A stretch of 48,679 bases of DNA from Nitrospirota bacterium (GTDB taxonomy: Bacteria > JACPQY01), in assembly GCA_016190245.1 (NCBI GenBank), contig JACPQY010000049.1, forward strand, positions 1 to 48,679, in the 5' to 3' direction. Shown here one piece after another: positions 16,315-42,522 of this stretch. Both the position numbers and the translations under genes were made by a program. Numbering within the stretch: position 1 is the first letter of the stretch; every line of letters starts with the position of its first letter. The notes beneath the pieces are model-generated. The model was not told where the DNA came from, did no database searches, and saw nothing but the letters and a program-made list of their open reading frames with translations.

Positions 16315-16339
16315 TCACCTCCTTGCATCACGAGCAAGG
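16315..16339 (-). promoter_or_regulatory. Strong Shine-Dalgarno within a small hairpin, SBBP gene
   Basis: On the minus strand aaggaggtga precedes GTG 16310 by 4 nt (7 nt from the aggagg core). Its first bases are part of gcaagg (from 16326), which can pair with ccttgc (from 16339) across a 7-nt loop, so part of the ribosome site may be masked. Whether the fold matters is untested. Confidence 0.5.
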
Positions 16340-16361
16340 GCCCCTCGGGCACCGTTTCGGG

Positions 16362-16391
16362 CTTGTAGCACTTCCCCGACCAGGCCGTCAA
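16362..16391 (-). promoter_or_regulatory. Promoter candidate for the SBBP gene
   Basis: Minus-strand ttgacg (16391-16386, five of six to the -35 consensus) and tacaag (16367-16362, four of six) are separated by 18 bp. Predicted transcription start is near 16355, giving a leader of about 45 nt that includes the Shine-Dalgarno hairpin. Confidence 0.4.
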
Positions 16392-16422
16392 GGCGGCCGC
16401 ATGTCCAAGGTTCGGGGGCGGC

Positions 16423-16450
16423 TTGATTCGCCCTGACGCGCGGGTAGAAT
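16423..16450 (+). promoter_or_regulatory. Promoter candidate giving a leaderless transcript for the first radical SAM gene
   Basis: ttgatt (16423-16428) and tagaat (16445-16450, five of six to the -10 consensus) are separated by 16 bp. The -10 ends 8 nt before GTG 16459, so the mRNA would begin at or next to the start codon. No good Shine-Dalgarno is present. If TTG 16423 were the true start this reading would fail. Confidence 0.35.
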
Positions 16451-16458
16451 TAGGATGG

Positions 16459-21689: not shown

Positions 21690-23112
21690 CCTGATCGTCG
21701 CGGCGCTGGCCATCGCGATGATGGCCGCGCTGGCGATGGTCCTCTCAGCCGAGGTGTCCATGGTGACCCTCGTGGGACTGGCGGGCGGTTCCCTGGTCTT
21801 TCTCCTCACGTTCATCATGCCCGAGCTGACGATCCACATCGTCATTTTGAGCATGCTCCTGAGCCCGGAATGGATGGTGGGAGGAAGCGAGTACGAGATT
21901 GGGGGGCACTCGACGGCCACGCTGCGCGTGGAGGATGTTCTGATGTTCTTCCTGGGGATGAGTTGGCTGGCCCGGATTGCCATCATGAAGGAAATCGAGG
22001 TTGTGCGAGGCAACCTTCTCAACGGGCCGATCCTGGCCTACCTCATGGCTTGCCTCTTGGGCACGGGATGGGGACTGCTCGGGGGAAACGTGAAGAGCGT
22101 CTCTGCCGCGGGTTTCTATCTGCTCAAGTATTTCGAGTACTTCTTCCTCTTCTACACCGTGGTCACCTTCGTTCGCCGTGCCGATCAGGTTCGGCGGCTG
22201 GTCCTCACCTTTTTCATCACGGCTGTAATTGTCTCCCTCGTCGGGATTTCCCAGATCCCCCAGGGGCAACGGATCTCGGCCCCGTTCGAGGGGGCGGGGG
22301 AGCCCAACACGTTTGGCGGGTACCTGATCTTCATCATGGGGCTGTGCCTGGGGATGGTGCTGACAGTGGATCGGTTGGGTGCGAAGATCGGGGCCTTGCT
22401 TCTGCTGGCGTTCTTCGGGATCCCACTTGTGTACACGCAGTCGAGATCGTCCTGGGTCGGGCTCATCCCGATGGGCCTGGCGGCGCTGGTCTGGCATCCG
22501 CGCAAGATTCTGGCGCTGAACCTGATCCTTGCCGCGGTCGCGCTCTGGTTCGTGGCAGTGCCGGCCGAGGTGCGCGACTTGGCTTCGCAGCGGATCGAGC
22601 GTACATTCGTTCCGGAAGGGGGGCACAGCGAGGAGATGCTGGGCGTGGTTTTCGACGAATCGACGTCGGCCCGAATCTCGACGTGGAAGAGAAGTCTGGT
22701 CCGCTGGACGGAGTCGCCCATTGTCGGGCACGGGGTCACCTCCGTGTTTGCGGATGCGCAGTTGCCACGGGTGCTGGTTGAGTCGGGAACGGTGGGGCTG
22801 GCCGCGTTCCTCTGGCTGGTGATCACGATGTTCCGGGTGGGGGTGCGGGCGAATCGAGCCGTGGCCGGCAGCACGTACTTCTCAAGCCTCACCTCGGGTT
22901 ACGTGATCGGTATGGCAGCCGTGATGGGGCACTCTCTCGGGGCGAACACCTTCGTGATCGTGCGCATCATGGAACCCGTCTGGTTCCTGACGGGCATCAT
23001 GCTGATCATTCCCACGCTTCCTGAGTTTTCCGCGTCGGAAGAGGCGCAGACCATCCAGCCGGAGTCGGTCCCTTCCGCGCTGCCGGCCCAGGCACCCACG
23101 TTCCTCCGGTGA
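21661..23112 (+). CDS. O-antigen ligase/polymerase family membrane protein (Wzy_C)
   Basis: A 483-residue polytopic inner-membrane protein with about ten to twelve hydrophobic segments, for example NLIVAALAIAMMAALAMVLS and IGALLLLAFFGIPLVYTQSR. The Wzy_C signature lies around YTQSRSSWVGLIP, followed by a long periplasmic loop (about 300-350, ERTFVPEGGHSEE...SARISTWKRSLVRWTESPIVGHG) as in WaaL/Wzy proteins. It would polymerise repeat units or ligate the finished glycan to a carrier in the periplasm. It is the only candidate polymerase/ligase in the window. ATG 21661 or 21676 could start it. Its TGA overlaps the SDR's GTG. Confidence 0.86.
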   Translation: MAGPNMLGRNLIVAALAIAMMAALAMVLSAEVSMVTLVGLAGGSLVFLLTFIMPELTIHIVILSMLLSPEWMVGGSEYEIGGHSTATLRVEDVLMFFLGMSWLARIAIMKEIEVVRGNLLNGPILAYLMACLLGTGWGLLGGNVKSVSAAGFYLLKYFEYFFLFYTVVTFVRRADQVRRLVLTFFITAVIVSLVGISQIPQGQRISAPFEGAGEPNTFGGYLIFIMGLCLGMVLTVDRLGAKIGALLLLAFFGIPLVYTQSRSSWVGLIPMGLAALVWHPRKILALNLILAAVALWFVAVPAEVRDLASQRIERTFVPEGGHSEEMLGVVFDESTSARISTWKRSLVRWTESPIVGHGVTSVFADAQLPRVLVESGTVGLAAFLWLVITMFRVGVRANRAVAGSTYFSSLTSGYVIGMAAVMGHSLGANTFVIVRIMEPVWFLTGIMLIIPTLPEFSASEEAQTIQPESVPSALPAQAPTFLR

Positions 23113-24095
23113 GAGTGCTCGTCACCGGCGGTGCCGGATTCATCGGATCCCACCTTGTGGATCGCCTCCTAGCGGAGGGGTACGAGGTGGTGGTTCTGGA
23201 CAACTTCTCGAGTGGGAGGCGGGAGAACCTGCGGGACGCCCTCGCCTCACCTCACCTCAAGCTGGTCGAGCAGGATGTGGCCGATCCCGACGGCGTGCGC
23301 CGGTGCATGGACGGCGTCGAGCGGGTTTTCCATCTCGCCGCCCTTGCCGACATCGTCCCTTCGGTCAACAGACCCCTTGTCTACCATCGGTCGAATGTGG
23401 ACGGGACGGTCTGCGTCCTGGAGGCGGCGAGGGCGGCGGGGGTGCGGAGGTTTGTCTATGCCGCCTCATCGTCCTGCTATGGAATCCCGGATCTCCACCC
23501 CACCTCGGAGGAGGCGCCGCCTCGACCTCAATACCCCTACGCCCTGACCAAACTGGTGGGGGAGCAGTACGTCCTCCACTGGGGGCGGCTATATGGACTG
23601 CCGGTGGTCTCGCTCCGTCTATTCAACGTCTACGGGCCGCGATCCAGAACGACGGGCACGTATGGGGCCGTCTTCGGCATCTTTCTTGCCCAGAAGCTGG
23701 CGGGGAAACCCTTTACCGTGGTGGGTGATGGCACGCAGTCCCGGGATTTCACGTACGTGAGTGATGTTGTGGACGCCATGGTGCAAGCGGCGGAGTCAGC
23801 CTTGTCGGGAGAGATTCTCAATGTCGGGAGCGGAAGACCTCAAACCGTCAACCGCCTGGTGGAACTCCTGGGCGGCGGCGTTGTCCATGTTCCCAAACGT
23901 CCAGGCGAGCCGGATCGAACGCATGCCGGCATCTCGAGGATTCGACGGCTGCTGGGCTGGGAGCCACGGATCTCCTTGGAGGAAGGAGTGGTGGTCATGC
24001 TGCGCCATATCGAGGATTGGCGGGAGGCTCCGGTTTGGACGCCCGAGAAGATCGAAGACGCCACCCGGGATTGGTTCCGGTACCTGGGGAAGTAG
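23109..24095 (+). CDS. UDP-glucose/GlcNAc 4-epimerase-like extended SDR
   Basis: 328 residues starting at GTG (GTGA overlap). GGAGFIG at 7-13, Ser region ASSSCYG at 119-125 and YALTK at 144-148 are the full extended-SDR set. LRLFNVYGPR and FTYVSDVVDAM are typical of UDP-hexose 4-epimerases (GalE/WbpP type). The C-terminus ends with an extra aromatic-rich tail (EDWREAPVWTPEKIEDATRD). It probably supplies UDP-Gal or UDP-GalNAc type donors. It is the last gene of its operon, 5 bp from the convergent GT4 gene, with no terminator evident between them. Confidence 0.88.
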   Translation: MRVLVTGGAGFIGSHLVDRLLAEGYEVVVLDNFSSGRRENLRDALASPHLKLVEQDVADPDGVRRCMDGVERVFHLAALADIVPSVNRPLVYHRSNVDGTVCVLEAARAAGVRRFVYAASSSCYGIPDLHPTSEEAPPRPQYPYALTKLVGEQYVLHWGRLYGLPVVSLRLFNVYGPRSRTTGTYGAVFGIFLAQKLAGKPFTVVGDGTQSRDFTYVSDVVDAMVQAAESALSGEILNVGSGRPQTVNRLVELLGGGVVHVPKRPGEPDRTHAGISRIRRLLGWEPRISLEEGVVVMLRHIEDWREAPVWTPEKIEDATRDWFRYLGK

Positions 24096-26511: not shown

Positions 26512-28062
26512 ATGACTTCACCCCAGCCGGCGGCGGCACGGCCCGGTGGCAAGATCGTCAGCCTTGAGGACTTGGCCCGAATTCTCGAACAAGGGAGGCG
26601 GGACGGTCGCCGAATCGCCCACTGCCATGGCGTGTTCGACCTCCTCCACGTGGGGCACATCCGCCACTTGCAGGAGGCCCGGGGAATGGGGGACATGCTT
26701 GTGGTGACCATCACGCCGGACCGGTTCGTCAACAAGGGCCCAGGACGGCCCGCGTTCCCCGAGGCCCTGCGCGCCGAGGTCGTCGCCTCGCTGGAATCGG
26801 TGGACCACGTGGCCGTGAACCGCTGGCCGACGGCCGTCGAGGCGATCAAGCTGCTGCGACCCCACTACTATGTGAAAGGACCGGACTACCGCGATGACCG
26901 CCAGGACGTCACCGGTGGGATCACGCTGGAGCGTGAGGCCGTGGAATCCGTCGGCGGCGAGATTCGGTACACAAACGACGTCACGTTCAGTTCCTCGTTC
27001 CTCCTCAACCGGCACATCCCCCTGTTTCCTCCCGGAGTGACCGAGTTCCTCAAGGGGTTTCGGGAACACCACTCGGCCTCCGAGTTGATCGCGGCGATCG
27101 AGGGCCTGCGTCCCCTGCGCGTCCTCGCGGTAGGCGAAACCATCCTCGATGAGTATGTGTATGGCTACGCCATAGGCAAGTCCTCCAAGGAGGCTGTCCT
27201 GGCCGTCCAGTACCAGAACCGCGAGCTGTATGCCGGCGGCATCCTCGCCATCGCCAACCACGTGGCGGAGTTCTCCGAGCACATTGATCTGGTCACCTAT
27301 CTGGGCACCTCCGATCCGCGGGAGGACTTCGTGCGCGCCGGCTTGAAGACGGGGATCACGCCCGAATTCATATACAAGGAGGGGGCCCCCACGATCGTGA
27401 AGCGGCGCTACGTGGACAAGTATCTTCTCTCGAAACTCCTTGAGGTTTACGAGATGGACGATCGGCCGCTCTCCCCGGACGCCGATGACCGCCTGTGTGA
27501 GGTTCTTCGCGAGCGCATGAAAAGGGCGGACGTCGTGGTCGTCGGCGATTTCGGGCACGGGTTGATCTCGCCTCGCGTGGCGGAGGTGCTCAGCCGCGAG
27601 GCGCCCTTCCTATGCGTCAATACCCAGGTGAATGCGGCCAACATCGGATTCCACACGATCTCCAAGTACCCGCATGCCGACTACGTGTGCATCCACGAAG
27701 GGGAGATCCGGCTGGACAAACGGGACCGGCAGGGGAACATTGAAGATCTCGTGCGCGATCTGTCCCGCAGGCTCGGATGCCCGACCATCAACGTGACCCA
27801 GGGGTCCAACGGCAGCCTGACCTACCGGGACGGCGAGGGCTTCTCGAAATGCCCCTCCCTGGCGTTGCGCGTGGTGGACAGGATCGGCGCGGGAGACGCG
27901 GTGTTCGCCGTCACGTCGTTGTGCGCGGCCCGGCGCGTGCCTTGCGAGCTGATGGGCTTCGTCGGCAACCTGATCGGCGCCCAGGCCGTGGCCGTGATCG
28001 GCAACAGCGCCTCGGTGGACCGTGTCGGCCTGATGCGAAGCGTGGAGTCGATCCTCAAGTAG
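26512..28062 (+). CDS. Fused nucleotidyltransferase-PfkB sugar kinase, HldE-like with reversed domain order
   Basis: 516 residues with two domains. Residues about 15-168 match the heptose-1-phosphate adenylyltransferase domain: GVFDLLHVGH (40-49) with the HxGH motif, DRFVNKGPGRPAF (70-82) and YVKGPDY (120-126). Residues about 203-515 are a PfkB/ribokinase-fold kinase with DRIGAGDAVF (456-465), whose Asp is the catalytic base. In HldE the kinase comes first; here the order is reversed. It would phosphorylate a sugar and activate it as an NDP-sugar. Its neighbours are an SDR and a split transketolase, a combination that suggests a heptose or branched sugar. Nucleotide and sugar are inferred. 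Confidence 0.88.
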   Translation: MTSPQPAAARPGGKIVSLEDLARILEQGRRDGRRIAHCHGVFDLLHVGHIRHLQEARGMGDMLVVTITPDRFVNKGPGRPAFPEALRAEVVASLESVDHVAVNRWPTAVEAIKLLRPHYYVKGPDYRDDRQDVTGGITLEREAVESVGGEIRYTNDVTFSSSFLLNRHIPLFPPGVTEFLKGFREHHSASELIAAIEGLRPLRVLAVGETILDEYVYGYAIGKSSKEAVLAVQYQNRELYAGGILAIANHVAEFSEHIDLVTYLGTSDPREDFVRAGLKTGITPEFIYKEGAPTIVKRRYVDKYLLSKLLEVYEMDDRPLSPDADDRLCEVLRERMKRADVVVVGDFGHGLISPRVAEVLSREAPFLCVNTQVNAANIGFHTISKYPHADYVCIHEGEIRLDKRDRQGNIEDLVRDLSRRLGCPTINVTQGSNGSLTYRDGEGFSKCPSLALRVVDRIGAGDAVFAVTSLCAARRVPCELMGFVGNLIGAQAVAVIGNSASVDRVGLMRSVESILK

Positions 28063-28076
28063 GAAGGGTGAGCGCG

Positions 28077-29099
28077 ATGGTGACGGATCGCCCGAGAAGG
28101 GTCCTCGTGACCGGCGGCGGTGGCTACGTGGGTGCGAGGTTGGTACCCCAACTGGTTGAACGCGGCCATCGCGTGCGCGTGCTGGACCTGTTTCTGTACG
28201 GGGAAGACGTGTTCGACGGTGTTGCGAGCGGCGGCGGGCTGGAATGCGTTCGAGGGGACCTGAGGGATGCCGGACTCCTCGCCCGTGCGTTGGAGGGTTG
28301 CGATGCGGTGATCCACCTGGCCTGCATCTCCAACGATCCGAGTTTCGAACTCGATCCCGTGCTGGGCCGCAGCATCAACTACGAGGCCTTTCCCCCGCTC
28401 GTCCGCCTCTCGAAGGAGAAGGGTGTGCGGCGCTTCATCTACGCCTCCACGTCGAGCGTCTACGGCGTGAGCGATTCGCCGGAGGTGACGGAAGAGCATC
28501 CCTTGGTACCCTTGACCGACTACAGCAGATACAAAGCCCTCTGCGAGCCGATCCTGCTGGAGCAGGCCGGCGCAGGTTTCGTGCCCGTCGTCATCCGTCC
28601 GGCGACCGTGTGCGGGTACTCGCGGCGCATGAGGCTGGATCTCACCGTCAACATTCTGACGGCCCACGCGGTCCAGCGCCGGATCGTCACCGTGTTTGGA
28701 GGCGACCAGACACGACCCAATATTCACATTCAGGACATGGTGGACCTCTACACCATGCTCCTGGACATGCCCGATGAGCGGGTGGCCCGAAAGGTCCTGA
28801 ACGCGGGATGCGCGAACCATCGCGTGTCGGACCTCGCCAGGATGGTCAAGACCGTGGTGGAAGAGGAGAGGCCTGACGGCGGACCGATCACGATCGAGAC
28901 CCGCGCCTCCGATGACAAGCGGTCCTATCGCATTACCTCGGATCGCATTCGGAAAGAGCTGGGGTTCGTGACACGCCACTCGATCGAGGATGCGGTTCGC
29001 GAAGTGGCCCGCGCCATCGGAGACGGGAGGATTTCAGACCCGCTCGGGAATCAGCGCTACTACAACATCCGGACCATGCAGGCCGTGGAGCTGAAGTGA
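28077..29099 (+). CDS. NAD-dependent epimerase (extended SDR, HldD/WcaG-like)
   Basis: 340 residues from ATG 28077, with aggaagg 9 nt upstream; an in-frame GTG at 28068 is possible. GGGGYVG at 13-19, STSSVYG at 124-130 and YSRYK at 149-153 make a complete active site. VIRPATVCGYSRRMRLDLTV and RPNIHIQDM (in the sugar-binding half) are typical of a group next to nucleotidyltransferase/kinase and transketolase genes. It likely epimerises or reduces the nucleotide sugar made by the preceding fusion protein. Its TGA overlaps the transketolase GTG. Confidence 0.88.
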   Translation: MVTDRPRRVLVTGGGGYVGARLVPQLVERGHRVRVLDLFLYGEDVFDGVASGGGLECVRGDLRDAGLLARALEGCDAVIHLACISNDPSFELDPVLGRSINYEAFPPLVRLSKEKGVRRFIYASTSSVYGVSDSPEVTEEHPLVPLTDYSRYKALCEPILLEQAGAGFVPVVIRPATVCGYSRRMRLDLTVNILTAHAVQRRIVTVFGGDQTRPNIHIQDMVDLYTMLLDMPDERVARKVLNAGCANHRVSDLARMVKTVVEEERPDGGPITIETRASDDKRSYRITSDRIRKELGFVTRHSIEDAVREVARAIGDGRISDPLGNQRYYNIRTMQAVELK

Positions 29100-29953
29100 G
29101 GGGCGCCGGCGCGACAGTGGAAGAAGCCTCGGGTCGCCCTGACCTTCGCGGGATGGACGAGACGGCCCGGCGCATCCGGGGAAGGCTGGTGGACATGTCG
29201 CACCGCGCCAAGACGCCCCACTTGGCTTCCGCGCTTTCCTGCGTGGACATCCTCGTCGCAGCCTACTGGGGTGTCTTGCGGATCGATCCGGCCCTCCCGC
29301 AAGACCCGGACCGGGACCGCTTCATCCTGAGCAAGGGTCACGCGGCCACGGCGCTGTACGCCACCCTCGCGCAACGCGGGTTCTTCGATCCGGCGCTCCT
29401 GGACTCGTTCGCCGCGGACGGAAGCCCGTTGGCCGAACATCCTGCCCCACGTTGCGCGCCGGGCGTTGAGCTGGCCACCGGCTCGCTGGGCCACGGACTT
29501 CCGGTGGGCCTGGGCATCGCCCTCGGCTGCCGGCTCCTCCATCGGTCCTACCGCGTCTTCGTGGTGATGAGCGACGGGGAGTGCAACGAGGGCTCCGTGT
29601 GGGAAGCAGCCCTTCTGGCGGCAGCGCACAGGCTCGACCGACTGTGCATCGTGATCGACTACAACAAGTGGCAGGCGACCGCCCGGAGCAACGAGACGAT
29701 GGCCCTCAGCCCGCTCCGGGAGAAATGGCAGGCGTTCGGATGGGAGGCGGTCGAAGTGGACGGACATGATCCGGCCGCCCTCCTCGAAGCGATGGGCGGG
29801 GTTCCGCACCCGTCCGGTCGGCCGCGCGCCATCGTGGCGCACACCGTCAAGGGGAAGGGTGTCTCCTTCATGGAGGACGATAACAACTGGCACTACCGTG
29901 TCCCGACGGCGGAAGAAGTGCGCCGCGCGAAGGAGGAGTTGGGTCTCGCATGA
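29096..29953 (+). CDS. Transketolase-like protein, N-terminal (ThDP pyrophosphate-binding) subunit
   Basis: 285 residues from GTG 29096 (GTGA overlap). SKGH at 79-82, GSLGHGL at 129-135 and SDGECNEGS at 159-167 correspond to the cofactor- and substrate-binding motifs of transketolase, with DYN at 188-190 completing the GDG-x-N type ThDP/metal site (first Gly is Ser here). It forms a split enzyme with the next gene. Transketolases move two-carbon ketol units; in a glycan locus this could supply sedoheptulose phosphate or build a two-carbon branch. A housekeeping role is less likely given the neighbours. Confidence 0.92.
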   Translation: MRGAGATVEEASGRPDLRGMDETARRIRGRLVDMSHRAKTPHLASALSCVDILVAAYWGVLRIDPALPQDPDRDRFILSKGHAATALYATLAQRGFFDPALLDSFAADGSPLAEHPAPRCAPGVELATGSLGHGLPVGLGIALGCRLLHRSYRVFVVMSDGECNEGSVWEAALLAAAHRLDRLCIVIDYNKWQATARSNETMALSPLREKWQAFGWEAVEVDGHDPAALLEAMGGVPHPSGRPRAIVAHTVKGKGVSFMEDDNNWHYRVPTAEEVRRAKEELGLA

Positions 29954-30879
29954 GGAATGCGTTTGCGGCGGAACTGACGGCACTGGCGGTCGAAGATCCT
30001 CGCATCTATCTCCTGTCGGGCGACATCGGCAATCAGCTCTTCGACAAGTTCAAGGCAGCACGCCCGGACCGCTTCCTCAACTGCGGGGTCGCCGAGGCCA
30101 ACATGATCGGTGTCGCCGCCGGACTGGCCTTGAACGGATTCCGTCCGATCGCGTACACGATCAACGCTTTCATCACCACCCGCTGCTATGAACAGATCCG
30201 CGTCGATCTGTGCTACCACAACCTCCCTGTCATCCTCGTCGGGGTGGGCGGCGGATTGGCCTACGCATCGCTCGGTCCGACGCACCATTCGTGCGAGGAC
30301 ATCGGGATTCTCAGGATCCTGCCCAACATGAAGGTGGTCTGTCCGGGGGACGCGGTCGAGGCGCGCCTGGCCATGCGGGCCGCCCTTCGAGAGCCGGGGC
30401 CCGTGTACATTCGGCTCGGGAAGAAGGGGGAGCCGGTTGTGCATGCGAGCCCGCCGCCCTTTCAACTGGGGAAGGCCATAGTTGTTCGCGAGGGGAGCGA
30501 GGTCTGCATCCTCAGCACGGGGAACACGCTTCCACTGGCCATCGAGGCCGGCGAGGAGTTGAACCGAGGCGGCGTCTCAACCCGCGTGGTCAGCTTCCAC
30601 ACGGTGAAGCCTCTCGACGAGGGTTGTCTGACCGAGGTGTTCTCCCGCTTTGCGGTGGTGGCCACGGTCGAGGAGCACAGCCGGCTGGGGGGCTTGGGGG
30701 GCGGCATCGCCGAGTGGATGGCCGACCGTGGCCCGGTCCGGGCCCGCCTCTGCCGCATCGGCACGCCTGATCGCTTTCTCCACGAGGCCGGTGAGCAGGC
30801 GCATGCGCGTGAGGCGTTCGGCCTGACCCCACAGCAGGTCGCCTCGACCATCCTGGCGGCCCGCCGTCCATCAGCTTGA
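29950..30879 (+). CDS. Transketolase-like protein, C-terminal (pyrimidine-binding) subunit
   Basis: 309 residues from ATG 29950 (ATGA overlap with the N-terminal subunit). VAEANMIGVAAGLALNG contains Glu49, the residue that activates the ThDP aminopyrimidine. GGGLAYASLGPTHHSCED marks the phosphate-binding loop, and the C-terminal domain includes ILSTGNTLPLAIEA. The two subunits together equal a full split transketolase of normal size. The stop overlaps the TTG of the SGNH-like gene. Substrate is unknown; see the linked module finding. Confidence 0.92.
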   Translation: MRNAFAAELTALAVEDPRIYLLSGDIGNQLFDKFKAARPDRFLNCGVAEANMIGVAAGLALNGFRPIAYTINAFITTRCYEQIRVDLCYHNLPVILVGVGGGLAYASLGPTHHSCEDIGILRILPNMKVVCPGDAVEARLAMRAALREPGPVYIRLGKKGEPVVHASPPPFQLGKAIVVREGSEVCILSTGNTLPLAIEAGEELNRGGVSTRVVSFHTVKPLDEGCLTEVFSRFAVVATVEEHSRLGGLGGGIAEWMADRGPVRARLCRIGTPDRFLHEAGEQAHAREAFGLTPQQVASTILAARRPSA

Positions 30880-31940
30880 ACCGCTCGTCGAGCGTCGTCC
30901 AACACCCCCCGGACGGGTCGGAACGGGGTACGGGCGCGGACCCCGATGCGAAGAGGCGCTCCGTCTCAGGCATCGGCGAGGACGTTGGGTTCGTGATCAA
31001 GGTTCTCGGCCTGAGCCTTGGCGGACTTGTCTCGATCGCCCTGCTCAATCTGCTGGTGGACCCCGAGGGCAGCTACGGGACCGGATGGGTCCGTCCCCTC
31101 GTGTGGAGCGCGCGCGACGAGAAACGTGAGTTGCTGTTGGGGATGGCGGAGAGCCCCCCGACTTGCCTTATTCTCGGGAGCTCGCGGACCATGAAGCTGG
31201 AGCCCGACGTGATACGGACGGCGGTGGGCGGGCGCGTCTTCAACGCCTCCATTGAAGAGGCCAGGGCGGGCGATTTCCTGCCGACCCTGGACTTCGTGCG
31301 CCGGCGCCTCGGCGCGCAAATCCGTTGGTTGATTGTGGGAGTGGACCCCACGACGTTCGAACAAGGGAAGAGCGATCCGTTTCGCGTCGTGAGCCATACG
31401 GTCAACTACCACCACGCGATCATGTCACTCCGCTCGATCACCTACGCGCTGACGCGCTATCCCGAGTCTGCCATCGGATTCAACAAAGACGGCTTCCTGG
31501 TCTACAAGAAGGACGACGCCGACCTGCAGGCCGGTGTCTTCGACCTCGAGGCCAAGCTAAGGGATTCCATCTCCTGGTACGTGCCGCGCCACGGGAATGA
31601 CCGGGGCCTTTCCTCGCAGGCCCTGGACACGTTCGAGGTGTTCGTGAAGGAAGTGCGCGCACGCGGGATCGAACTTGCTGTCTACGAGCCGCCCTACCAT
31701 CCGAGAATGATCGAGGCGCTCAGGTCGCGCTCGCACTACCCCGAGCTCCACGAGGCCTTGACCCGAGAGCTTGAACGGCTTGCCTCGCTGTACGACTTTC
31801 GAATGTTCGACTTCTCCGAGATCGAGGCTTTTGGTGGACGTCCGGACTGGTTCTACGACGCCATCCATCCTCGGATCGAGAACAACCGACTGATCCTGGC
31901 CCGGTTGTTGCCGGCGTCTCCACCCCATGCTCTTCAATAG
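30876..31940 (+). CDS. Membrane-anchored SGNH-hydrolase-like protein, partner of the MBOAT acyltransferase
   Basis: 354 residues from TTG 30876 (TTGA overlap). One N-terminal membrane segment (VIKVLGLSLGGLVSIALLNL, about 39-58) should leave the rest in the periplasm. CLILGSSRTMKLEP resembles the block I Ser region of SGNH/GDSL folds, and DWFYDAIHPR near residue 328 has the Asp and His spacing of block V. The next gene is an MBOAT of the AlgI type, overlapping by 14 bp; such pairs (AlgI/AlgJ, DltB/DltD, PatA/PatB) move acyl groups onto extracytoplasmic polymers. Sequence match to a named family is weak. Confidence 0.72.
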   Translation: MNRSSSVVQHPPDGSERGTGADPDAKRRSVSGIGEDVGFVIKVLGLSLGGLVSIALLNLLVDPEGSYGTGWVRPLVWSARDEKRELLLGMAESPPTCLILGSSRTMKLEPDVIRTAVGGRVFNASIEEARAGDFLPTLDFVRRRLGAQIRWLIVGVDPTTFEQGKSDPFRVVSHTVNYHHAIMSLRSITYALTRYPESAIGFNKDGFLVYKKDDADLQAGVFDLEAKLRDSISWYVPRHGNDRGLSSQALDTFEVFVKEVRARGIELAVYEPPYHPRMIEALRSRSHYPELHEALTRELERLASLYDFRMFDFSEIEAFGGRPDWFYDAIHPRIENNRLILARLLPASPPHALQ

Positions 31941-33321
31941 CTTCGTCTTCATCTTTGTCTTTCTGCCGCCGGTCCTCGCGATCTGGTGGTGGCCGGGCCT
32001 TGGGCGGCGAACCCGGCTCGCCGTCCTGACGGGGGCCAGTTATGTTTTCTACGGGTACTGGGATTGGCGATTCACGTTTCTCATGCTTCTTTCTACACTC
32101 GTCGATTTCGGAGCCGGCCTGGCCATGGAAAGGAGCCGGAGCCAGGGCATGCGGCGGTTCTTCCTTGTATGTTCTCTGGCCGCCAATCTGGGGCTTCTCG
32201 GTTTCTTCAAGTACTGGGGCCTGCTCGCCACCTCGCTGAACGCGGTCGCGGCGGGGCTGGGGTTTGGGGCGTCCTTCCCGACCATCGAGGTCGTCCTGCC
32301 GGTCGGGATCTCGTTCTACACCTTTCAGACCATGAGCTACTCGATTGACGTGTATCGGCGGCAGGTGGGTGCGACCCGCGATTTTCTGGCCTTCTCGGCC
32401 TTCGTCTCGATGTACCCGCAGCTCGTGGCGGGGCCGATCGTGCGCTACGTCGAGTTGGCCGAGCAGATCGATCGCCCGCGGCAGCGGCCCGAGTGGGAGG
32501 AGATCCGCCGCGGGGTCGAGCTGTTTCTGATCGGTCTCTGCAAGAAGGTGCTGCTGGCGGATGCCATCGGTGCCCAGGTCGATCGCGTCCTGGAGACCCC
32601 CGATCTCCTCGGACTGGCCGGGAGCTGGGCGGCCATGGTCGGGTTCGCGCTTCAGATCTACTTCGATTTTTCCGGATACAGCGACATGGCCGTAGGGCTG
32701 GGATACCTGCTCGGGTTTCGGCTGCCGATGAATTTCAACTCGCCGTACAAGGCCCGGAACATCTCGGAATTCTGGGAGCGCTGGCACATCAGTCTGTCGA
32801 GTTGGCTCAGGGACTACCTGTACATCCCGCTGGGCGGGAGTCGAAAGGGTCACGCTCGCACCCTGCGCAATCTGGCGATCACGATGTTTCTCGGGGGCCT
32901 GTGGCATGGCGCGAACTGGACCTTTGTGGCCTGGGGCCTCTATCACGGGGTTCTGCTTCTCGGCTACCATTCATGGCGCCGCGCGCATCTGCCCGTGCCG
33001 GGGCCGCGCACGAGCATGTTCCTTACCTTCGCCCTCGTCGTGGTCGGGTGGGTCTTCTTCCGCTCCGACGGTTTCGGCATGGCGGGGATCCTGCTCGGCC
33101 GTATGTTCGGCCTGAGCGGTTCCGCGCTCTCGCCGGCGGGGGCCTCTCCAGCGCTGCTGGTGCTCGTTGGGGCAGGGTGTGCGTGGTGCCTCATCGCCCC
33201 CAACTCCTGGGACTTCCGCCCCCCCAAAAGCCGCCTGTCGATGGTGGCCCTCGCGCTCATGGCGATCCTGGGCACGATGAGGCTGGAGGTGCTGAGGCCC
33301 TTCCTTTACTTCCAGTTCTGA
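31927..33321 (+). CDS. MBOAT-family O-acyltransferase (AlgI-like)
   Basis: A 464-residue multi-pass membrane protein. The AlgI/DltB signature is clear: LPVGISFYTFQTMSYSID (124-141), FDFSGYSDMAVGLGYLLG (247-264), FWERWHISLSSWLRDYLYIP (282-301) with His287, and GGLWHGANW (323-331) with the invariant catalytic His327. It would pass acyl groups, commonly acetyl, across the membrane for transfer to glycan hydroxyls in the periplasm. It overlaps the SGNH-like gene, supporting joint action. Length is normal for the family. Confidence 0.94.
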   Translation: MLFNSFVFIFVFLPPVLAIWWWPGLGRRTRLAVLTGASYVFYGYWDWRFTFLMLLSTLVDFGAGLAMERSRSQGMRRFFLVCSLAANLGLLGFFKYWGLLATSLNAVAAGLGFGASFPTIEVVLPVGISFYTFQTMSYSIDVYRRQVGATRDFLAFSAFVSMYPQLVAGPIVRYVELAEQIDRPRQRPEWEEIRRGVELFLIGLCKKVLLADAIGAQVDRVLETPDLLGLAGSWAAMVGFALQIYFDFSGYSDMAVGLGYLLGFRLPMNFNSPYKARNISEFWERWHISLSSWLRDYLYIPLGGSRKGHARTLRNLAITMFLGGLWHGANWTFVAWGLYHGVLLLGYHSWRRAHLPVPGPRTSMFLTFALVVVGWVFFRSDGFGMAGILLGRMFGLSGSALSPAGASPALLVLVGAGCAWCLIAPNSWDFRPPKSRLSMVALALMAILGTMRLEVLRPFLYFQF

Positions 33322-33370
33322 GAACGTGGACCATGCGTAGGTCGTGGGGTACGATGGGGCCGGGTCGCCC

Positions 33371-34426
33371 ATGAAAACCGTTGCTGCGGTACTTGTCGAG
33401 ACGGGACGGCCACTCGAGCTCGCCGAGCTGGAAATCCCTCCGCTCCGACCGGGGCAGGTCCTGGTGCGTGTGGCGTTCAGCGGCGTCTGCCACACGCAGC
33501 TTCTCGAGTGTCGGGGCTATCGCGGGGTGGATCGCTTTCTCCCGCACTGTCTCGGGCACGAAGGCTGCGGCACGGTGGTCGAAGTGGGCCCTGACGTGAC
33601 AAAGGCGAGAGTGGGGAAGAAGGTGATCCTTTCGTGGATGAAGGGCCTGGGCCGAGACGTCCCGGGCACCACCTATGCGTGGGACGGCCGGACCGTCAAC
33701 GCGGGCGGCATCACCACGTTCAGCGACTGCGCGGTCGTGAGTGAGAATCGGGTCACGGCCGTCGAAACATGCCTGTCGGGCGCGGAGGCGGCCTTGCTCG
33801 GATGCGCGATCCCCACCGGAATGGGGGCGGTGCTCAATACGGGCGATGTGAAGGAAGGAGAGTCGGTGGCGGTCTTCGGCGCGGGGGGAATCGGGCTCTG
33901 GAGCGTGGCCGCGGCCTCGGCCGCCGGGTGCCGTCCGGTCGTCGCCATCGACACGAACGAGGCGAGGTTGATGGCGGCGAGCCAGGTGGGCGCCGACCGT
34001 CTCGTCCGAGCCGATCGTGAGAATGCCGGGGCGCGGTTGCGCGAGCTTGTCCCGGGCGGTCTGGACTGCGCAGTCGAGGCCTCGGGGCGGCCCGACGTGA
34101 TGCGCTTGGCGCTGGCGTGCGTGCGACCGCGTGGCGGCCGGGCCGTGGTGGTCGGCAATGCGCGCCACGGAGAGGTCCTCACGATTGACCCAAGCGAGCT
34201 GAACCAAGGCAAGCGTCTTCTGGGCACCTGGGGGGGGGACAACCGGCCCGACACCGATTTCCCGCGGTACGCCCGGTTCTTCGACGAGGGGCGACTCAAG
34301 ATCCCCCAGGGCCTGGTGACGGAGTACGATCTCGCCCGCGTAAACGAGGCTCTGGAAGCTCTTGAGGCGGGTCGCGTGGGTCGCGCCGTGCTGAGGATGG
34401 AGGGAGCTGAGTCCGGCGGGTGGTGA
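33371..34426 (+). CDS. Zinc-dependent medium-chain dehydrogenase (MDR) without the structural-zinc loop
   Basis: 351 residues from ATG 33371. Catalytic zinc ligands are visible as Cys40 (GVCHTQ), His63/Glu64 (GHEGCG) and Cys145 (LLGCAIPTG). NAD(P) binding is by GAGGIG at 170-175. The four-cysteine structural zinc lobe normal in alcohol dehydrogenases is absent; residues 90-118 read KGLGRDVPGTTYAWDGRT and on. A nine-G run at 34230-34238 encodes GTWGGDN. It may oxidise or reduce an alcohol/aldehyde on the sugar precursor. tacgat at 33350-33355 with tggacc 17 bp upstream may be a weak internal promoter. Confidence 0.88.
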   Translation: MKTVAAVLVETGRPLELAELEIPPLRPGQVLVRVAFSGVCHTQLLECRGYRGVDRFLPHCLGHEGCGTVVEVGPDVTKARVGKKVILSWMKGLGRDVPGTTYAWDGRTVNAGGITTFSDCAVVSENRVTAVETCLSGAEAALLGCAIPTGMGAVLNTGDVKEGESVAVFGAGGIGLWSVAAASAAGCRPVVAIDTNEARLMAASQVGADRLVRADRENAGARLRELVPGGLDCAVEASGRPDVMRLALACVRPRGGRAVVVGNARHGEVLTIDPSELNQGKRLLGTWGGDNRPDTDFPRYARFFDEGRLKIPQGLVTEYDLARVNEALEALEAGRVGRAVLRMEGAESGGW

Positions 34427-35043
34427 TCGGTCTCGACTTGGACAATACGCTGGCTTCCTACGACGCCCTCTTTCACCGCCTGGCTCTGGAACGGGGTTGG
34501 ATTTCCTCGGCCGTGGCCGTGGTCAAGGACGAGGTTCGCAATGCCCTCCGCGCGGCGGGCCGCGAGGACGACTGGACCCGGCTGCAAGGGGAGGTCTACG
34601 GGATTCGAATGGGTGACGCGGTTCCTTTCCCGGGTTCTCTGGAGTTCGTCCGTGCCTGCCTGCGCCGGGGAATCGAGGTGTATGTTCTGAGTCACCGGAC
34701 CCGGAGGCCGTACGACGGGCCGGATTTTGACCTCCATCAGGCCGCGCGACGATGGCTGATGGCACGCGGATTTGTCGGCGAAGCACGCGAGGCCCTGGAG
34801 GACTCGAATCTCGTCCTCGCCGAAACCAAGGCAGGGAAAATTGCCGCAATTCGCGAGAAGGGTTGCACGCACTTCGTGGACGACCTGCCGGAGTTCCTGC
34901 TGGAGCCGGGTTTTCAGGCCGACGTTATGCGAATCCTCTTCGACCCGGCCGGCCGCCACGTGCCCCCGCCGGATGGGCTGCGACGGATCGGCAGTTGGCA
35001 CGAACTGGAGTTCCTGTTGTGGGGCGCGCCGACCGCCGCCTGA
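34423..35043 (+). CDS. HAD-superfamily hydrolase (putative phosphatase)
   Basis: About 206 residues from GTG 34423, which overlaps the dehydrogenase stop as GTGA; the GTG one codon earlier is also in frame. Motif I is DLDNT with the nucleophile Asp5 and acid Asp7. Motif II is VLSHRT, motif III probably the Lys in ETKAGK, and motif IV HFVDDLPEF. A cap insertion lies between motifs I and II. In this module it could remove a phosphate from a sugar bisphosphate, the step done by GmhB in heptose synthesis, but it is not a close GmhB match. Overlaps the next gene by 25 bp. Confidence 0.83.
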   Translation: MIGLDLDNTLASYDALFHRLALERGWISSAVAVVKDEVRNALRAAGREDDWTRLQGEVYGIRMGDAVPFPGSLEFVRACLRRGIEVYVLSHRTRRPYDGPDFDLHQAARRWLMARGFVGEAREALEDSNLVLAETKAGKIAAIREKGCTHFVDDLPEFLLEPGFQADVMRILFDPAGRHVPPPDGLRRIGSWHELEFLLWGAPTAA

Positions 35044-36071
35044 GCCCCGCGCAGATCCGGGCCCTCCGCAAGCTGATGTCCCGCGCGGGGCTGGGGTGTC
35101 CCCTGCGGATCACGCCGGAGGAAGGGGGAAAGAATAACAGGGCGTTCGGTGTAGATACGGATAGATGCAAGATATTCATGAAGTGTTACTTCAGATACTC
35201 AGGAGACCGCAGGAACCGGCAACACGCTGAGTTTGCGTGGAGCCGCTTTGCGTGGCGCAGGGGTGTCAGGTGGTTGCCCGAGCCGCTGGCCACGGATCGC
35301 CGCTCCGGCTTCAGCCTCTTCGAATACGTCCCCGGTCGCCGACTGGACGCCGGCGAGGTGACGGCCGGGCACGTGGGTGCGGCATTGCGTTTCTTCGCCG
35401 AGATCAACCGCGGCCGACGAGGCGCCCCGGCGCGGCGCCTGCCGGCGGCCTCGGAATCGTGTTTCAGTGTCGAGGAACATCTGAGGTGCGTCGAGAGAAG
35501 GGTACGACGCTTGGAAGGAATCCGACCAAAAAGCGCCGTTCAACGCAGCGCTCGCCGGTTTGTGAAGGAGGAACTCGTTCCGGAGTGGAATCGGGTTCGG
35601 GAGGGTGCCCGGACTCAGACCGGCACCGCGGCGTTGAGAAGAGCCCTCCCTTTCGCGGATCGCGTCCTTTCACCTTCCGATTTCGGTTTCCACAATGTCA
35701 TCGTCAGGCCGGAGGGCGAGCTGTGTTTCATTGATTTCGAGTACGCGGGATGGGACGATCCCGCAAAGATGATCTGCGATTTGTTCCTGCAACCGGCCGT
35801 GCAGGTGCCCGTGCGCCATCGAACGCGGGTTCTCGATGCGGCGGCGGAATGGGTCGCGGATCCAACGGCGTTGAGGGCGAGGGTTGACCTCCTGGCGCCC
35901 GCCTACAGGATCAAGTGGGTTTGCATCCTGATGAACGAATTCCTAGCCGTGGGCCGACGGCGGCGTGTCTTCGCGGTTCCCGGGGAGGACCTCGATGTTC
36001 GCCAAGCCCGCCAACTCGCGGCGGCGCGCGCGATGCTTCACGGGGCGGAGGCGGCCCCGCACCTATCCTGA
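35019..36071 (+). CDS. Aminoglycoside phosphotransferase/choline-kinase-fold protein
   Basis: 350 residues if GTG 35019 is used; ATG 35076 is an alternative. The N-lobe has a Gly-rich loop EEGGKNNRAFGV and the ATP-binding lysine in IFMKCYF. The C-lobe has LSPSDFGFHNVIV (Brenner motif: catalytic Asp and Asn present, first His replaced) and FIDFEYAGWDDP with the Mg-binding Asp. It would phosphorylate a sugar, choline-like or amino-sugar substrate. Codons around 35128-35210 are AT-richer and rarer (ATA, AGA, GTA, TCA) than the surroundings. The stop codon lies inside the left inverted repeat of the GIY-YIG element, so the last residues are encoded by it. Confidence 0.8.
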   Translation: MGRADRRLSPAQIRALRKLMSRAGLGCPLRITPEEGGKNNRAFGVDTDRCKIFMKCYFRYSGDRRNRQHAEFAWSRFAWRRGVRWLPEPLATDRRSGFSLFEYVPGRRLDAGEVTAGHVGAALRFFAEINRGRRGAPARRLPAASESCFSVEEHLRCVERRVRRLEGIRPKSAVQRSARRFVKEELVPEWNRVREGARTQTGTAALRRALPFADRVLSPSDFGFHNVIVRPEGELCFIDFEYAGWDDPAKMICDLFLQPAVQVPVRHRTRVLDAAAEWVADPTALRARVDLLAPAYRIKWVCILMNEFLAVGRRRRVFAVPGEDLDVRQARQLAAARAMLHGAEAAPHLS

Positions 36072-36354
36072 CAGCGATGTACTACGTATACTTACTGAGG
36101 AGTCTCCACCACGATTGGGGCTACATCGGCTACACTTCGCACTTGAGGACACGCATGCGTCAGCATCGGACGGGGCAGGCGCGGTCGACAAGACCCTATC
36201 TGCCCGTCAAGCCGGTCTACTACGAGGCCTACATTTCCTGGGAAGACGCGAGACATCGCGAGCAGGCACTGAAGTACTTCGGGAAGGCGTACGGGCAGCT
36301 CAAGAGGCGCTTGGCGCACTCCTTGCGTCTTCCCGTGTCAGGATAGGTGCGGGG
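36055..36354 (+). mobile_element. 300-bp element: GIY-YIG gene bounded by perfect 19-bp inverted repeats
   Basis: ccccgcacctatcctgaca (36055-36073) and its exact reverse complement (36336-36354) bound a single 89-codon GIY-YIG nuclease gene. The left repeat carries the stop of the phosphotransferase and the right one begins the GTG of the following SDR. No obvious target duplication is seen. The arrangement fits a minimal mobile element, but mobility is inference; no transposase other than the nuclease is present. Confidence 0.55.
36077..36346 (+). CDS. Single-domain GIY-YIG endonuclease (COG2827-like)
   Basis: 89 residues, the normal size of stand-alone GIY-YIG proteins. MYYVYLLRS stands for the GIY strand and WGYIGYTSHL for YIG. 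The catalytic Arg region LRTRMRQHRTG and the metal-binding Glu in ARHREQALKYF are present, so it should be an active DNA endonuclease fold. ATG begins 4 nt inside the left 19-bp inverted repeat, and the TAG stop lies inside the right one. It interrupts an otherwise continuous glycan operon and is the only non-glycan gene between 26512 and 41088. The biological role of this family is unsettled. Confidence 0.88.
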   Translation: MYYVYLLRSLHHDWGYIGYTSHLRTRMRQHRTGQARSTRPYLPVKPVYYEAYISWEDARHREQALKYFGKAYGQLKRRLAHSLRLPVSG

Positions 36355-37343
36355 TGAAGATCGTCGTCCTTGGCGCGAATTCCTTTTCCGGCCAGGACTT
36401 CGTGGACCTGCTCTTGGACGATCCCTCGAATGAGGTCCTCGGAGTCAGCCGATCGCCGGAGCGCAGCGAAGTCTTCCTCCGCTACAAGCTGCGCCCGGAT
36501 CTGTCGCGCTATCGCTACCACGCCCTCGATTTCAACTCGGACATGGACGCGATCCATTCGCTTCTTGACCGCGAGCGTCCCGAGGCGATCGTGAATTTTG
36601 CCGCGCAAAGCGAGGTGGCGCCGAGCTGGGAACATCCCGAGCATTGGTACCAGACCAACACGGTGGCGCTCGCGCGTCTCGTCAACCACTTGAGACGGCG
36701 GGATTACCTGCGGCGCTATGTGCACATCTCGTCTCCGGAGGTCTACGGCTCGTGCGAGGGACGTGTCGCGGAGGACGCGCCGATGAACCCCAGCACGCCC
36801 TATGCGGCGAGCAAGGCGGCTGCCGACCACCTGCTCTTTGCCTACCACCGCCAGTTCGCATTCCCCCTGCTCGTGGTCCGCGGCACCAATGTCTACGGCG
36901 CGCGGCAGCAGCTCTTCAAGATCATCCCCCGCACGGTGATCGCCCTGAGGCAGGGCAGGAAGATCGAGCTCCACGGGGGGGGGGTCGCCGTCAAGTCCTA
37001 CATTCATGTCCGGGATGTCTCGCGCGGCGAGGCCCTTGTCCTGCGAAACGGCAAGGCCGGTTCAATCTACCACCTCTCGCCACCGGCGGGGATCGCGGTC
37101 CGCGACGTCGTCCGCCGGATCTGCGAGCGCTTGGGACGGCGTTTCGAGGACTCGACCACGGCCGTGGCGGAGCGCCCGGGCCAGGACCGGGCCTACGTGA
37201 TCGACTCGACCCGCGCGCGAACGGAGCTCGGGTGGTTACGCCGGATTGACTTGGACGAGGGGATCGGCGAGGTGGTGGAATGGATCGGCCGCTATTGGAA
37301 CGAAATCGAACGCCTTCCGCATGAGTATGTGCACAAAGCCTAG
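36354..37343 (+). CDS. NDP-sugar 4,6-dehydratase-like extended SDR
   Basis: 329 residues from GTG 36354. GANSFSG at 7-13 is the Rossmann loop, SSPEVYG at 126-132 corresponds to STDEVYG/STSELYG of RmlB and GMD (the Glu is kept, the RmlB Asp is Pro), and YAASK at 150-154 is YxxxK. It probably dehydrates or otherwise converts a GDP- or dTDP-hexose at the start of a deoxysugar branch. A ten-G run (36975-36984) encodes LHGGGVAV mid-gene; a one-base slip would truncate the protein there. The start codon overlaps the right inverted repeat of the GIY-YIG element. Confidence 0.86.
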   Translation: MKIVVLGANSFSGQDFVDLLLDDPSNEVLGVSRSPERSEVFLRYKLRPDLSRYRYHALDFNSDMDAIHSLLDRERPEAIVNFAAQSEVAPSWEHPEHWYQTNTVALARLVNHLRRRDYLRRYVHISSPEVYGSCEGRVAEDAPMNPSTPYAASKAAADHLLFAYHRQFAFPLLVVRGTNVYGARQQLFKIIPRTVIALRQGRKIELHGGGVAVKSYIHVRDVSRGEALVLRNGKAGSIYHLSPPAGIAVRDVVRRICERLGRRFEDSTTAVAERPGQDRAYVIDSTRARTELGWLRRIDLDEGIGEVVEWIGRYWNEIERLPHEYVHKA

Positions 37344-37437: not shown

Positions 37438-38100
37438 ATGGCCTACATCGACTTCATCTCCCGGATCCATCGCTCGACGAAGCGGGACTATGTTCAACGG
37501 GTCGTTGAGCACGACAAGGCCGAGTGCGCGGAGGTGGCGATCAAGTTCGGCCGCGAGTACTGGGATGGGGATCGCCGCTTCGGCTATGGGGGGTACAAAT
37601 ACGATGGGCGGTGGAGGGCCGTGGCCGAGGCGATGGCGAGCCACTACGCACTCAAGCCCGGCTCCACCATCCTCGACGTCGGGTGCGGGAGGGGTTTCCT
37701 GCTCTACGATCTCAGCCAGGTTGTCCCGGGGTCGCGCGTCGCCGGCATCGACATCTCGCTCTACGGGATCGAGACCGCCAAACCCGAGCTGAGGGGGCGG
37801 CTGGCCGAGGCCACAGCAGCGCGCCTGCCCTTCAAGGATCGCTCGTTCGATTTTGTCGTGACGGTCAATGCCCTTCACAACCTGCACAACTACGACCTCT
37901 GGAGAGCCCTCGGGGAGATCGAGCGGGTGGGGCGGGGCGCGAAGCACATCATCATCGAGGCCTATCGGAGCGAGCGGGAGAAGGTGAACCTGATGTACTG
38001 GCAGCTCACGTGCCGGGCGATGCTCACGCCGCGGGAGTGGGAATGGCTTTTCGAAAAAACCGGCTACACCGGCGACTACTCGTATATCACCTTTGAATAG
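37438..38100 (+). CDS. Class I SAM-dependent methyltransferase
   Basis: 220 residues from ATG 37438. The N-terminal region FGREYWDGDRRFGYGGYKYD precedes the SAM motif ILDVGCGRGFLLYDL at about 78-92. RLPFKDRSFDFVVTVNALHNL is the motif II region (given here as a family landmark, about 128-148). It resembles methyltransferases found beside transketolase/HldE-like genes in other glycan loci, from memory. Substrate unknown. The following gene starts at or just before its stop. Confidence 0.86.
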   Translation: MAYIDFISRIHRSTKRDYVQRVVEHDKAECAEVAIKFGREYWDGDRRFGYGGYKYDGRWRAVAEAMASHYALKPGSTILDVGCGRGFLLYDLSQVVPGSRVAGIDISLYGIETAKPELRGRLAEATAARLPFKDRSFDFVVTVNALHNLHNYDLWRALGEIERVGRGAKHIIIEAYRSEREKVNLMYWQLTCRAMLTPREWEWLFEKTGYTGDYSYITFE

Positions 38101-39352: not shown

Positions 39353-40543
39353 ATGAGTTGTCTCCTCTGCGGAGGCCGGCCGGACCCCGTCCTCGATCTC
39401 GGCCCGCAGCCGGTCAGCCACCATTTTCTGGAGAAGCCCGGCAAGGAGCGATGCTACCCACTCGCCCTAGCCCTGTGCGGGGAGTGCGGCTTGGTTCAAG
39501 TCGCCCATCCCATCGGGGCTGAAGGGCTGAAGCCGAAGTATGACTGGGTGGTCCATGTCGAGCCGTCGGCTCATCTTGACGAACTCGCCTTGCGTCTCCA
39601 ATCGCTTCCGGGTCTGTCCCAAGCCAGTCGAGTGCTGGGCCTGACGTACAAGGACGATGGCTTGATCGAGAGGCTGGGGCGGGCGGGGTGGACTGGAGCC
39701 TGCCGACTTGATCCCCAGGGCGATCTCGGGATTCCGGATCGGCGCATCGGGATGGAGACGGTCCGGTCGGCCCTGACGTCAGCCTCCGCCGAGAGGATCG
39801 CGCGTGCCCGTGGAGAGGCGGATCTGGTGATCGCCCGCCACATCTTCAAGTACGCCCACAACCCGCTCGATTTTCTGTCTGCGTTAGCGCGACTGACAGG
39901 GCCCGCTGGATACATCCTGATCGAGATCTCGGAGTGCCGGACCGCCTTGGAGGCGGGGGACTACTCCGTCATTTGGGAGGAGCACATCCTCTATCTCACA
40001 CCGACCACCCTGTGCGAGGGGCTTGAGCGGGGCGGCCTCCGGATCGAGCACTTCTGGTTTTTCCCAAACACGAACGAGTCGTGCCTTGTCGCGATCTGCC
40101 GGGTCGGGAAGGGGATCCCGAAGGCGGATCCTGGGCTCTTGGCCGAGGAGCATGGGCGTGCCCTGGGATTCGCCGAAGGCTACCCGGGATTCCGGCGACG
40201 GGTGCGGGAACGTGTGGAGGGGTTGGCGGCCGGGGGGGGGGTCGCCATCCTGGGCGCGGGACACCGGTCGGTGGCGTTCGTCAATCTGCTTGGGCTGGCG
40301 CCGTGGCTCCGCGCGGTCATTGATGACGACCCCCGCAAACAAGGCCTCCTCATACCCGGCTCACAACTCCCGATTCGCCCCTCCTCGGTGCTCGCCGGTG
40401 GCGAGATCCGAACCTGCCTCCTCGGCGTCAAGCCGGAAGATGAAGTCAGAGTTGTGGCGCGGAATGAGGTTCTCGTGAAGGCGGGCGGTCGGTTCCTTTC
40501 CATCTTCCCGCTCAGCCCCCAGTTCCTCCTGCGCTCGATTTGA
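39353..40543 (+). CDS. C-methyltransferase-like protein with a degenerate SAM site
   Basis: 396 residues from ATG 39353. The zinc motifs CLLC and CGECG are intact, and the C-terminal Rossmann domain is recognisable (AILGAGHRSVAFVNL, then VIDDDPRKQG). The central domain lacks the glycine-rich SAM loop: where homologues read [10 protein letters not shown], this has LGLTYKDDGLIERL. The Glu-His pair survives in VIWEEHILYL. It may not bind SAM and could be a pseudo-enzyme, a partner of the adjacent canonical copy, or do another reaction. A ten-G run (40232-40241) encodes AAGGGVAIL at the start of the last domain. Confidence 0.8.
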   Translation: MSCLLCGGRPDPVLDLGPQPVSHHFLEKPGKERCYPLALALCGECGLVQVAHPIGAEGLKPKYDWVVHVEPSAHLDELALRLQSLPGLSQASRVLGLTYKDDGLIERLGRAGWTGACRLDPQGDLGIPDRRIGMETVRSALTSASAERIARARGEADLVIARHIFKYAHNPLDFLSALARLTGPAGYILIEISECRTALEAGDYSVIWEEHILYLTPTTLCEGLERGGLRIEHFWFFPNTNESCLVAICRVGKGIPKADPGLLAEEHGRALGFAEGYPGFRRRVRERVEGLAAGGGVAILGAGHRSVAFVNLLGLAPWLRAVIDDDPRKQGLLIPGSQLPIRPSSVLAGGEIRTCLLGVKPEDEVRVVARNEVLVKAGGRFLSIFPLSPQFLLRSI

Positions 40544-40584
40544 CAGCCGCGCACCATGTTCGACATGATCGAGGATGGCGAGCC

Positions 40585-42515: not shown

Positions 42516-42522
42516 CGCCAAG

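Follow-up and report, generated by a model that had tools for sequence, protein, structure and literature searches.

Branching and activation of sugars: described systems and the locus under study

The route catalysed by RfbF, RfbG and RfbH ends at cytidine diphosphate (CDP)-4-keto-3,6-dideoxyglucose. In yersiniose, YerE puts a two-carbon branch on that 4-ketone (PMC12247030). According to a 2025 review, the classes of thiamine diphosphate (ThDP) enzymes assigned to the branching of sugars also include E1 alpha/beta pairs and split transketolases; the branching of keto sugars by a transketolase is a proposal unproven in vitro, with 13 candidates, all of them from Streptomycetes (PMC12247030). 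Here, we describe a 48,679-nucleotide stretch of DNA from a Nitrospirota bacterium (assembly GCA_016190245.1, contig JACPQY010000049.1; the whole stretch is called the window), in which a split transketolase lies in one gene run with a reversed HldE-like nucleotidyltransferase-kinase fusion, SDR and MDR oxidoreductases and a HAD-like phosphatase, followed by an APH-type kinase and a methyltransferase (Table 1). We propose that this locus encodes a dedicated pathway for a nucleoside diphosphate (NDP)-activated C-branched sugar that probably stems from a heptose phosphate and is bound for a surface polysaccharide, a reading to which slightly better than an even chance is given.

By analogy, the locus is best read as a system that would work like the branching of yersiniose and avilamycin, and yet it includes no member of the YerE, E1 alpha/beta, HldE or ordinary transketolase families. 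In the yersiniose system (RfbF-RfbG-RfbH plus YerE), the two-carbon branch of a sugar bound for a surface polysaccharide is added at the NDP-keto-sugar stage by a ThDP enzyme; the same role is proposed here for the window pair, and relatives of the window transketolase sit in rfbF-rfbG(-rfbH) clusters. However, YerE is a single-chain, decarboxylase-type flavoenzyme using pyruvate, whereas the window has a split transketolase behind a heptose-type front end. AviB1/AviB2 and Pau11/Pau12 (E1 alpha/beta, alphaKADH2) are likewise ThDP enzymes of two chains to which the C2 branching of sugars has been assigned, but they take acetyl from pyruvate, belong to another protein family and are found in loci without HAD or APH. 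The best-scoring models for both window chains are those of transketolase, so they fall outside the E1 alpha/beta family. By their description, the split transketolases of miharamycin and amipurimycin are similar in that hydroxyacetyl transfer to a keto sugar has been proposed for them, and the window pair, as a two-chain transketolase in a sugar-nucleotide cluster, conforms to this type; in contrast, those enzymes are known only from Streptomycetes and antibiotics and are unproven in vitro. Finally, the Carboxydothermus enzyme has the same chain split and is the best solved relative of both window chains (6yak for the N chain, 6yaj for the C chain), yet it keeps the equivalents of H461 and D469 and lies outside the window's clade.

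A split transketolase with an altered acceptor pocket

The genome to which the window belongs also encodes a full-length transketolase (on C82, an open frame of 706 amino acids) and another split pair (on C53). The window pair is therefore a dedicated one, as the first-pass annotation of this DNA had supposed, and a role in central metabolism was rejected for it because a housekeeping transketolase is present.

Both window chains together keep the thiamine pyrophosphate (TPP) motif, the catalytic Glu and the histidines H66, H100 and H473 (E. coli numbering), whose roles in donor binding have been described (PMC7661550). The choice of acceptor is governed by D469 and S385, the latter touching the substrate phosphate (PMC5073344), and H461 sits in the same pocket (PMC10787763). 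In an alignment that included the relatives from the module, the acceptor region reads HDSIGVGEDGPTH in the C82 enzyme, HAGVTVGEDGASH in that of C53 and HAGLTVGEDGASH in 6yaj, against GGGLAYASLGPTH in the window, where H461 is replaced by G and D469 by L, with H473 kept; the window pair thus has the TPP, Glu and donor-site residues of an ordinary transketolase and not its acceptor residues. The position of S385 is apparently Q in the window chain, in a part where the alignment is less sure. None of the 20 module C chains examined, window included, retains H461 or D469. Among the loci labelled as transketolase-bearing, L014 alone departs from this: its nearby pair is ordinary in type, and a second pair, of the kind found in the window, is present 15 kb away on its plasmid. 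The position of H100 is Q in some relatives, in which the donor may differ.

In a tree built from C chains, one clade with a support of 100/98 unites the 27 G461 proteins (bootstrap not fully settled). Outside it fall 6yaj, the other transketolases of the window's genome and a LysW-linked Streptomyces type, which is the nearest outgroup. A split transketolase was also seen on a plasmid of Streptomyces sp. NBC_01006 (L187), amid LysW/LysX-type and peptide-synthesis genes resembling the route to the azabicycle of azinomycin.

The top two plasmid relatives of the C chain lie in sugar-nucleotide clusters. That of Methylovirgula sp. HY1 consists of rfbF, rfbG, an SDR, rfbH and the transketolase N and C chains, and that of Paenibacillus cellulosilyticus of rfbF, rfbG, a methyltransferase, an SDR-transketolase N fusion and the transketolase C chain. 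Both transketolases bear the signature of the window and lie inside the G461 clade. On the Paenibacillus plasmid, an NDP-sugar-type SDR and the N chain form a single protein of 635 amino acids (L186:5097-7004), which supports a functional link between SDR and transketolase.

Exchange of the transketolase with E1 alpha/beta pairs

The comparison set comprised 57 loci with an orthologue-grade fusion, up to about 10 kb per side being taken for many relatives. By the thresholds used, 23 of them have a split transketolase and 20 a pyruvate-dehydrogenase-like E1 alpha/beta pair, and none has both. Given the supported branches of the fusion tree, each of these labels must have changed at least 10 times; the thiamine enzyme is therefore a cassette that has been replaced repeatedly while the front end stayed conserved. 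Repeated exchange on the tree is to be expected if both enzymes act on the product of the front end, and replacement of a transketolase by E1 if both put a two-carbon branch on the same kind of sugar. In 19 of 43 loci the SDR immediately precedes the thiamine enzyme pair, and three loci (L104, L116 and L148) carry the SDR and the pair as one inverted unit with respect to the fusion.

The accompanying genes differ between the two types. HAD and APH are present in 15 of the 23 transketolase loci and in none of the 20 E1 loci (Fisher p = 3e-6, a value that ignores shared ancestry), and MDR in seven and none, respectively; MT1, the methyltransferase, occurs in 16/23 against 3/20, and strong orthologues of SDR2, a dehydratase-like SDR, in 8/23 and 2/20. 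The restriction of HAD and APH to transketolase loci fits a hydroxyl-bearing hydroxyacetyl branch, and not an acetyl one.

The first-pass annotation had offered two guesses for the transketolase, either the synthesis of a seven-carbon ketose phosphate or the attachment of a two-carbon branch, the fusion acting afterwards. According to the former, the transketolase would come first, forming a special ketose phosphate (e.g., C7) that an isomerase and the fusion would then turn into an NDP-sugar. Transketolases of central metabolism do form sedoheptulose 7-phosphate, and a GmhA-like isomerase is often found near the fusion; however, that ketose is already made by the housekeeping transketolase, E1 alpha/beta pairs, which are unfit for such a job, hold the same place in 20 loci, the acceptor-pocket residues have been lost, and the same clade occurs in rfbF/rfbG clusters, whose sugar derives from glucose 1-phosphate. 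Since the pair swaps with E1 alpha/beta and its acceptor pocket is altered, the seven-carbon product is disfavoured, and this whole sequence of events is considered very unlikely. The two-carbon branch is the favoured guess, probably with the order reversed, so that the sugar would be activated first and the branch added later.

Regarding the enzyme family as a whole, it is tentatively suggested, at somewhat less than an even chance, that a separate clade of split transketolases hydroxyacetylates heptose-type NDP-keto-sugars (CDP-4-keto-deoxyhexoses in rfbF/rfbG clusters) destined for surface polysaccharides, being interchangeable with E1 acetyl-branching enzymes behind the reversed HldE-like front end in several phyla; this would amount to a modular, undescribed pathway for C-branched higher sugars.

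Spread and conservation of the module

Relatives of the fusion were found in 55/340 genomes of the phylum of an Elusimicrobia genome, in 33/392 of that of a Planctomycetota genome (weak matches included) and in 8/368 of that of an Oligoflexia genome, as well as on plasmids of Solidesulfovibrio carbinolicus and Azospirillum oryzae; phage records yielded no full-length fusion. Many genomes from several phyla repeat the genes of the module in unchanged order, so the gene set is more than chance, and the earlier idea of a single biosynthetic module co-conserved elsewhere was borne out among the 57 loci. Moreover, 20 of the 22 genomes with the HAD gene also have the fusion, against 55/340 overall (p = 9e-16, again ignoring shared ancestry).

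The conserved module is larger than the set listed at first, as it also contains an additional SDR (SDRb), the APH-type kinase, SDR2 and the methyltransferase, reaching position 38100. SDRb is counted in it because it shares 69% identity with the SDR that immediately precedes the fusion in Azospirillum; an orthologue-grade match to it was obtained in 36/57 fusion loci, and to SDR in 38/57. The SGNH/MBOAT pair, previously taken as the acylation part of the module, appears in none of the 57 loci and is therefore a local insertion, outside the conserved set.

On the plasmid of S. carbinolicus DSM 3852, the fusion stands with a GSU2086-family gene and an SIS gene, and about 15 kb away lie window-type genes for HAD, APH, the two transketolase chains and MT1; in some genomes, the transketolase-MDR-HAD-APH block is on another contig than the fusion. 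A block so placed could serve another sugar, and its separation agrees with the idea that transketolase, MDR, HAD, APH and MT1 make a separate moiety decorating the polysaccharide (for instance a small polyol, an acid or an amino-acid-derived compound), the fusion and the SDRs making an independent NDP-sugar. The related azinomycin split transketolase extends an amino-acid semialdehyde (PMC9570651), and, as noted, the closest outgroup of the clade is LysW-linked. Nevertheless, most transketolase loci have the block, the fusion and the SDR in one gene run, with overlapping reading frames in the window, and relatives of the transketolase accompany rfbF/rfbG, the N chain of Paenibacillus being fused to an NDP-sugar-type SDR, so that two independent products are held to be unlikely.

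The fusion protein and the origin of the sugar

As in HldE, or in HldA-HldC with GmhA, a kinase is combined with a nucleotidyltransferase, but here the order of domains is the reverse of that in HldE: a CTP_transf_like domain (residues 39-144) precedes the PfkB domain (204-501). The HxGH and GAGD motifs are kept in 4/4 aligned members. Against the HldE equivalog models the protein scores 102.6 and 99.2 bits, far below the cut-offs (345 for TIGR02198 and 181.5 for TIGR02199), whereas an HldA kinase on C74 of the same genome, with 354.7 bits, passes its own. Membership of the fusion in HldE was thus rejected, given the reversed domains and the failing scores. In an AlphaFold model (four sequences, mean pLDDT 79.5), the kinase fold is closest to HldA among PfkB structures (E 6.8e-22 vs 1.3e-14 for the next family).

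It had been argued earlier that the absence of GmhA from the window removes it from the ordinary heptose pathway. The window indeed has no such gene; however, a GmhA-like SIS gene is near the fusion in 28/57 loci, in one gene run with it in L110, L111 and L113, and the genome of the window has one beside the HldA kinase at C74, so that this argument is not supported. Of the metal ligands of GmhA, the SIS proteins keep H61 and H183, E65 and Q175 being mostly D and E, the C74 copy likewise; their scores are below the GmhA cut-off. A heptose origin of the activated sugar is considered likely.

The same branching scheme could also act on a non-heptose unit, such as a CDP-pentose, a CDP-polyol or another CDP-sugar. 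Among solved structures, an ethanolamine-phosphate cytidylyltransferase is the top match to the sequence of the nucleotidyltransferase domain, the HldE models score low, and C. jejuni is reported to make CDP-glucitol for its capsule (PMC10918830). Taking into account, on the other side, the GmhA-like partner in about half of the loci and a kinase fold nearest to HldA by a wide margin, this alternative is judged less likely than not, and the heptose-derived sugar is preferred.

Other arrangements were observed around the fusion. In G118, G137, G157 and G617, the nucleotidyltransferase domain is also encoded separately, no more than about 60 bases upstream of the fusion, and a GSU2086-family protein (NF052581, 384 bits; L014:13522-14487) adjoins the fusion in L014, L116 and L120. 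In L105, L107, L129, L130, L133 and L137, genes for SIS, a DegT aminotransferase and an SDR are directly downstream, which suggests an amino-sugar branch of the same pathway. No literature precedent was found for such a cluster, for GSU2086 or for PfkB-cytidylyltransferase fusions.

Proposed pathway

From these comparisons we infer the substrates, the order of steps, the nucleotide and the product as follows. A GmhA-like isomerase, encoded in the genome of the window at C74, would provide an aldose phosphate, which the fusion would phosphorylate at C1 and then couple to a nucleotide, giving an NDP-sugar. SDRb, SDR and perhaps the dehydratase-like SDR2, a candidate for the origin of the keto group, would epimerise this compound and open a ketone. 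The split transketolase would then move a hydroxyacetyl unit from a ketose or hydroxypyruvate onto that ketone, creating a tertiary-alcohol branch, and MDR, HAD, the APH-type kinase and MT1 would modify the hydroxyl-bearing branch. In the E1 alpha/beta loci, which are without HAD and APH, an acetyl branch lacking a terminal hydroxyl would be added instead.

Several observations weigh against this pathway. Besides the block detached from the fusion and the low HldE scores mentioned above, 14/57 fusion loci have neither thiamine enzyme (several being cut by contig ends), and rfbH was not seen in the Paenibacillus cellulosilyticus stretch. The contrast of HAD with transketolase along the tree agreed in direction with the counts by locus, with about four pairs for, none against and three tied, but it is an underpowered comparison and not significant (median p 0.125). 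In addition, GmhB was sought in the genome of the window and not found, in a targeted search run without a positive control.

Gene content of the window

Translation and family searches confirmed that the genes first listed are present and nearly contiguous, and that the fusion begins with its nucleotidyltransferase. From the fusion to HAD, neighbours overlap by 4-14 bases or are separated by gaps of 14-22 bases: the overlaps are of 4 bases for SDR/transketolase N, N/C and C/SGNH, 14 for SGNH/MBOAT and 7 for MDR/HAD. SDRb is separated from the fusion by two glycosyltransferases on the opposite strand. The best Pfam match of the SGNH-like protein to any family has an E of 0.036. For the HAD protein, the Pfam HAD match has an E of 0.012 in the window and 2.7e-4 in a homologue, and a sequence search of solved structures with it gave no match.

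Table 1. Genes and motif of the proposed branched-sugar module and of the acyltransferase pair inserted in it (positions in the window)
Feature	Position	Strand	Evidence
SDRb, NAD-dependent epimerase/dehydratase-type SDR	23109..24095	+	Pfam Epimerase 227 bits
Reversed HldE-like fusion (cytidylyltransferase-like domain, then PfkB kinase domain)	26512..28062	+	Pfam and NCBIfam
SDR, NDP-sugar epimerase/dehydrogenase type	28077..29099	+	Pfam Epimerase 126.6 bits
Split transketolase N chain, TPP-binding	29096..29953	+	Pfam Transketolase_N
Split transketolase C chain	29950..30879	+	Pfam Transket_pyr and Transketolase_C
Altered acceptor-pocket motif GGGLAYASLGPTH, C chain residues 100-112	30247..30285	+	Alignment
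SGNH-like gene of inserted acyltransferase pair	30876-31940	+	Weak match only
MBOAT gene of inserted acyltransferase pair	31927-33321	+	Pfam
MDR, zinc-type alcohol dehydrogenase	33344..34426	+	Pfam ADH_N and ADH_zinc_N
HAD-like phosphatase	34420..35043	+	Weak Pfam HAD match
APH-type small-molecule kinase	35076..36071	+	Pfam APH
SDR2, resembles dTDP-glucose 4,6-dehydratase	36354..37343	+	NCBIfam 210 bits vs cut-off 365
MT1, class I S-adenosylmethionine (SAM) methyltransferase	37438..38100	+	Pfam Methyltransf_11

Elsewhere in the window, a small DUF6016 protein is encoded at 40540-41088 (+), with relatives in 5/23 transketolase-type fusion loci and in no E1-type locus. At 41685-44139 (-), a gene of the aminoglycoside 3-N-acetyltransferase family adjoins a DegT aminotransferase, a pair of the same polysaccharide island that probably N-acylates an amino sugar. 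This island also contains, at 13758-16499 (-), the gene for a protein of 913 amino acids with DUF7948 and SBBP beta-propeller repeats.

Significance

As opposed to the candidates of the 2025 review, which are known only from Streptomycetes (PMC12247030), the transketolases described here form a well-supported clade with a clear active-site signature, placed in surface-polysaccharide clusters of several phyla. The clade has cultured carriers, namely Paenibacillus cellulosilyticus, Methylovirgula sp. HY1 and S. carbinolicus DSM 3852. For the rfbF/rfbG clusters, a compound already described is the likely acceptor, which makes the idea testable with preparable substrates. Were the idea correct, it would represent a new route to tertiary-alcohol sugars and would account for a gene set found in many uncultured bacteria.

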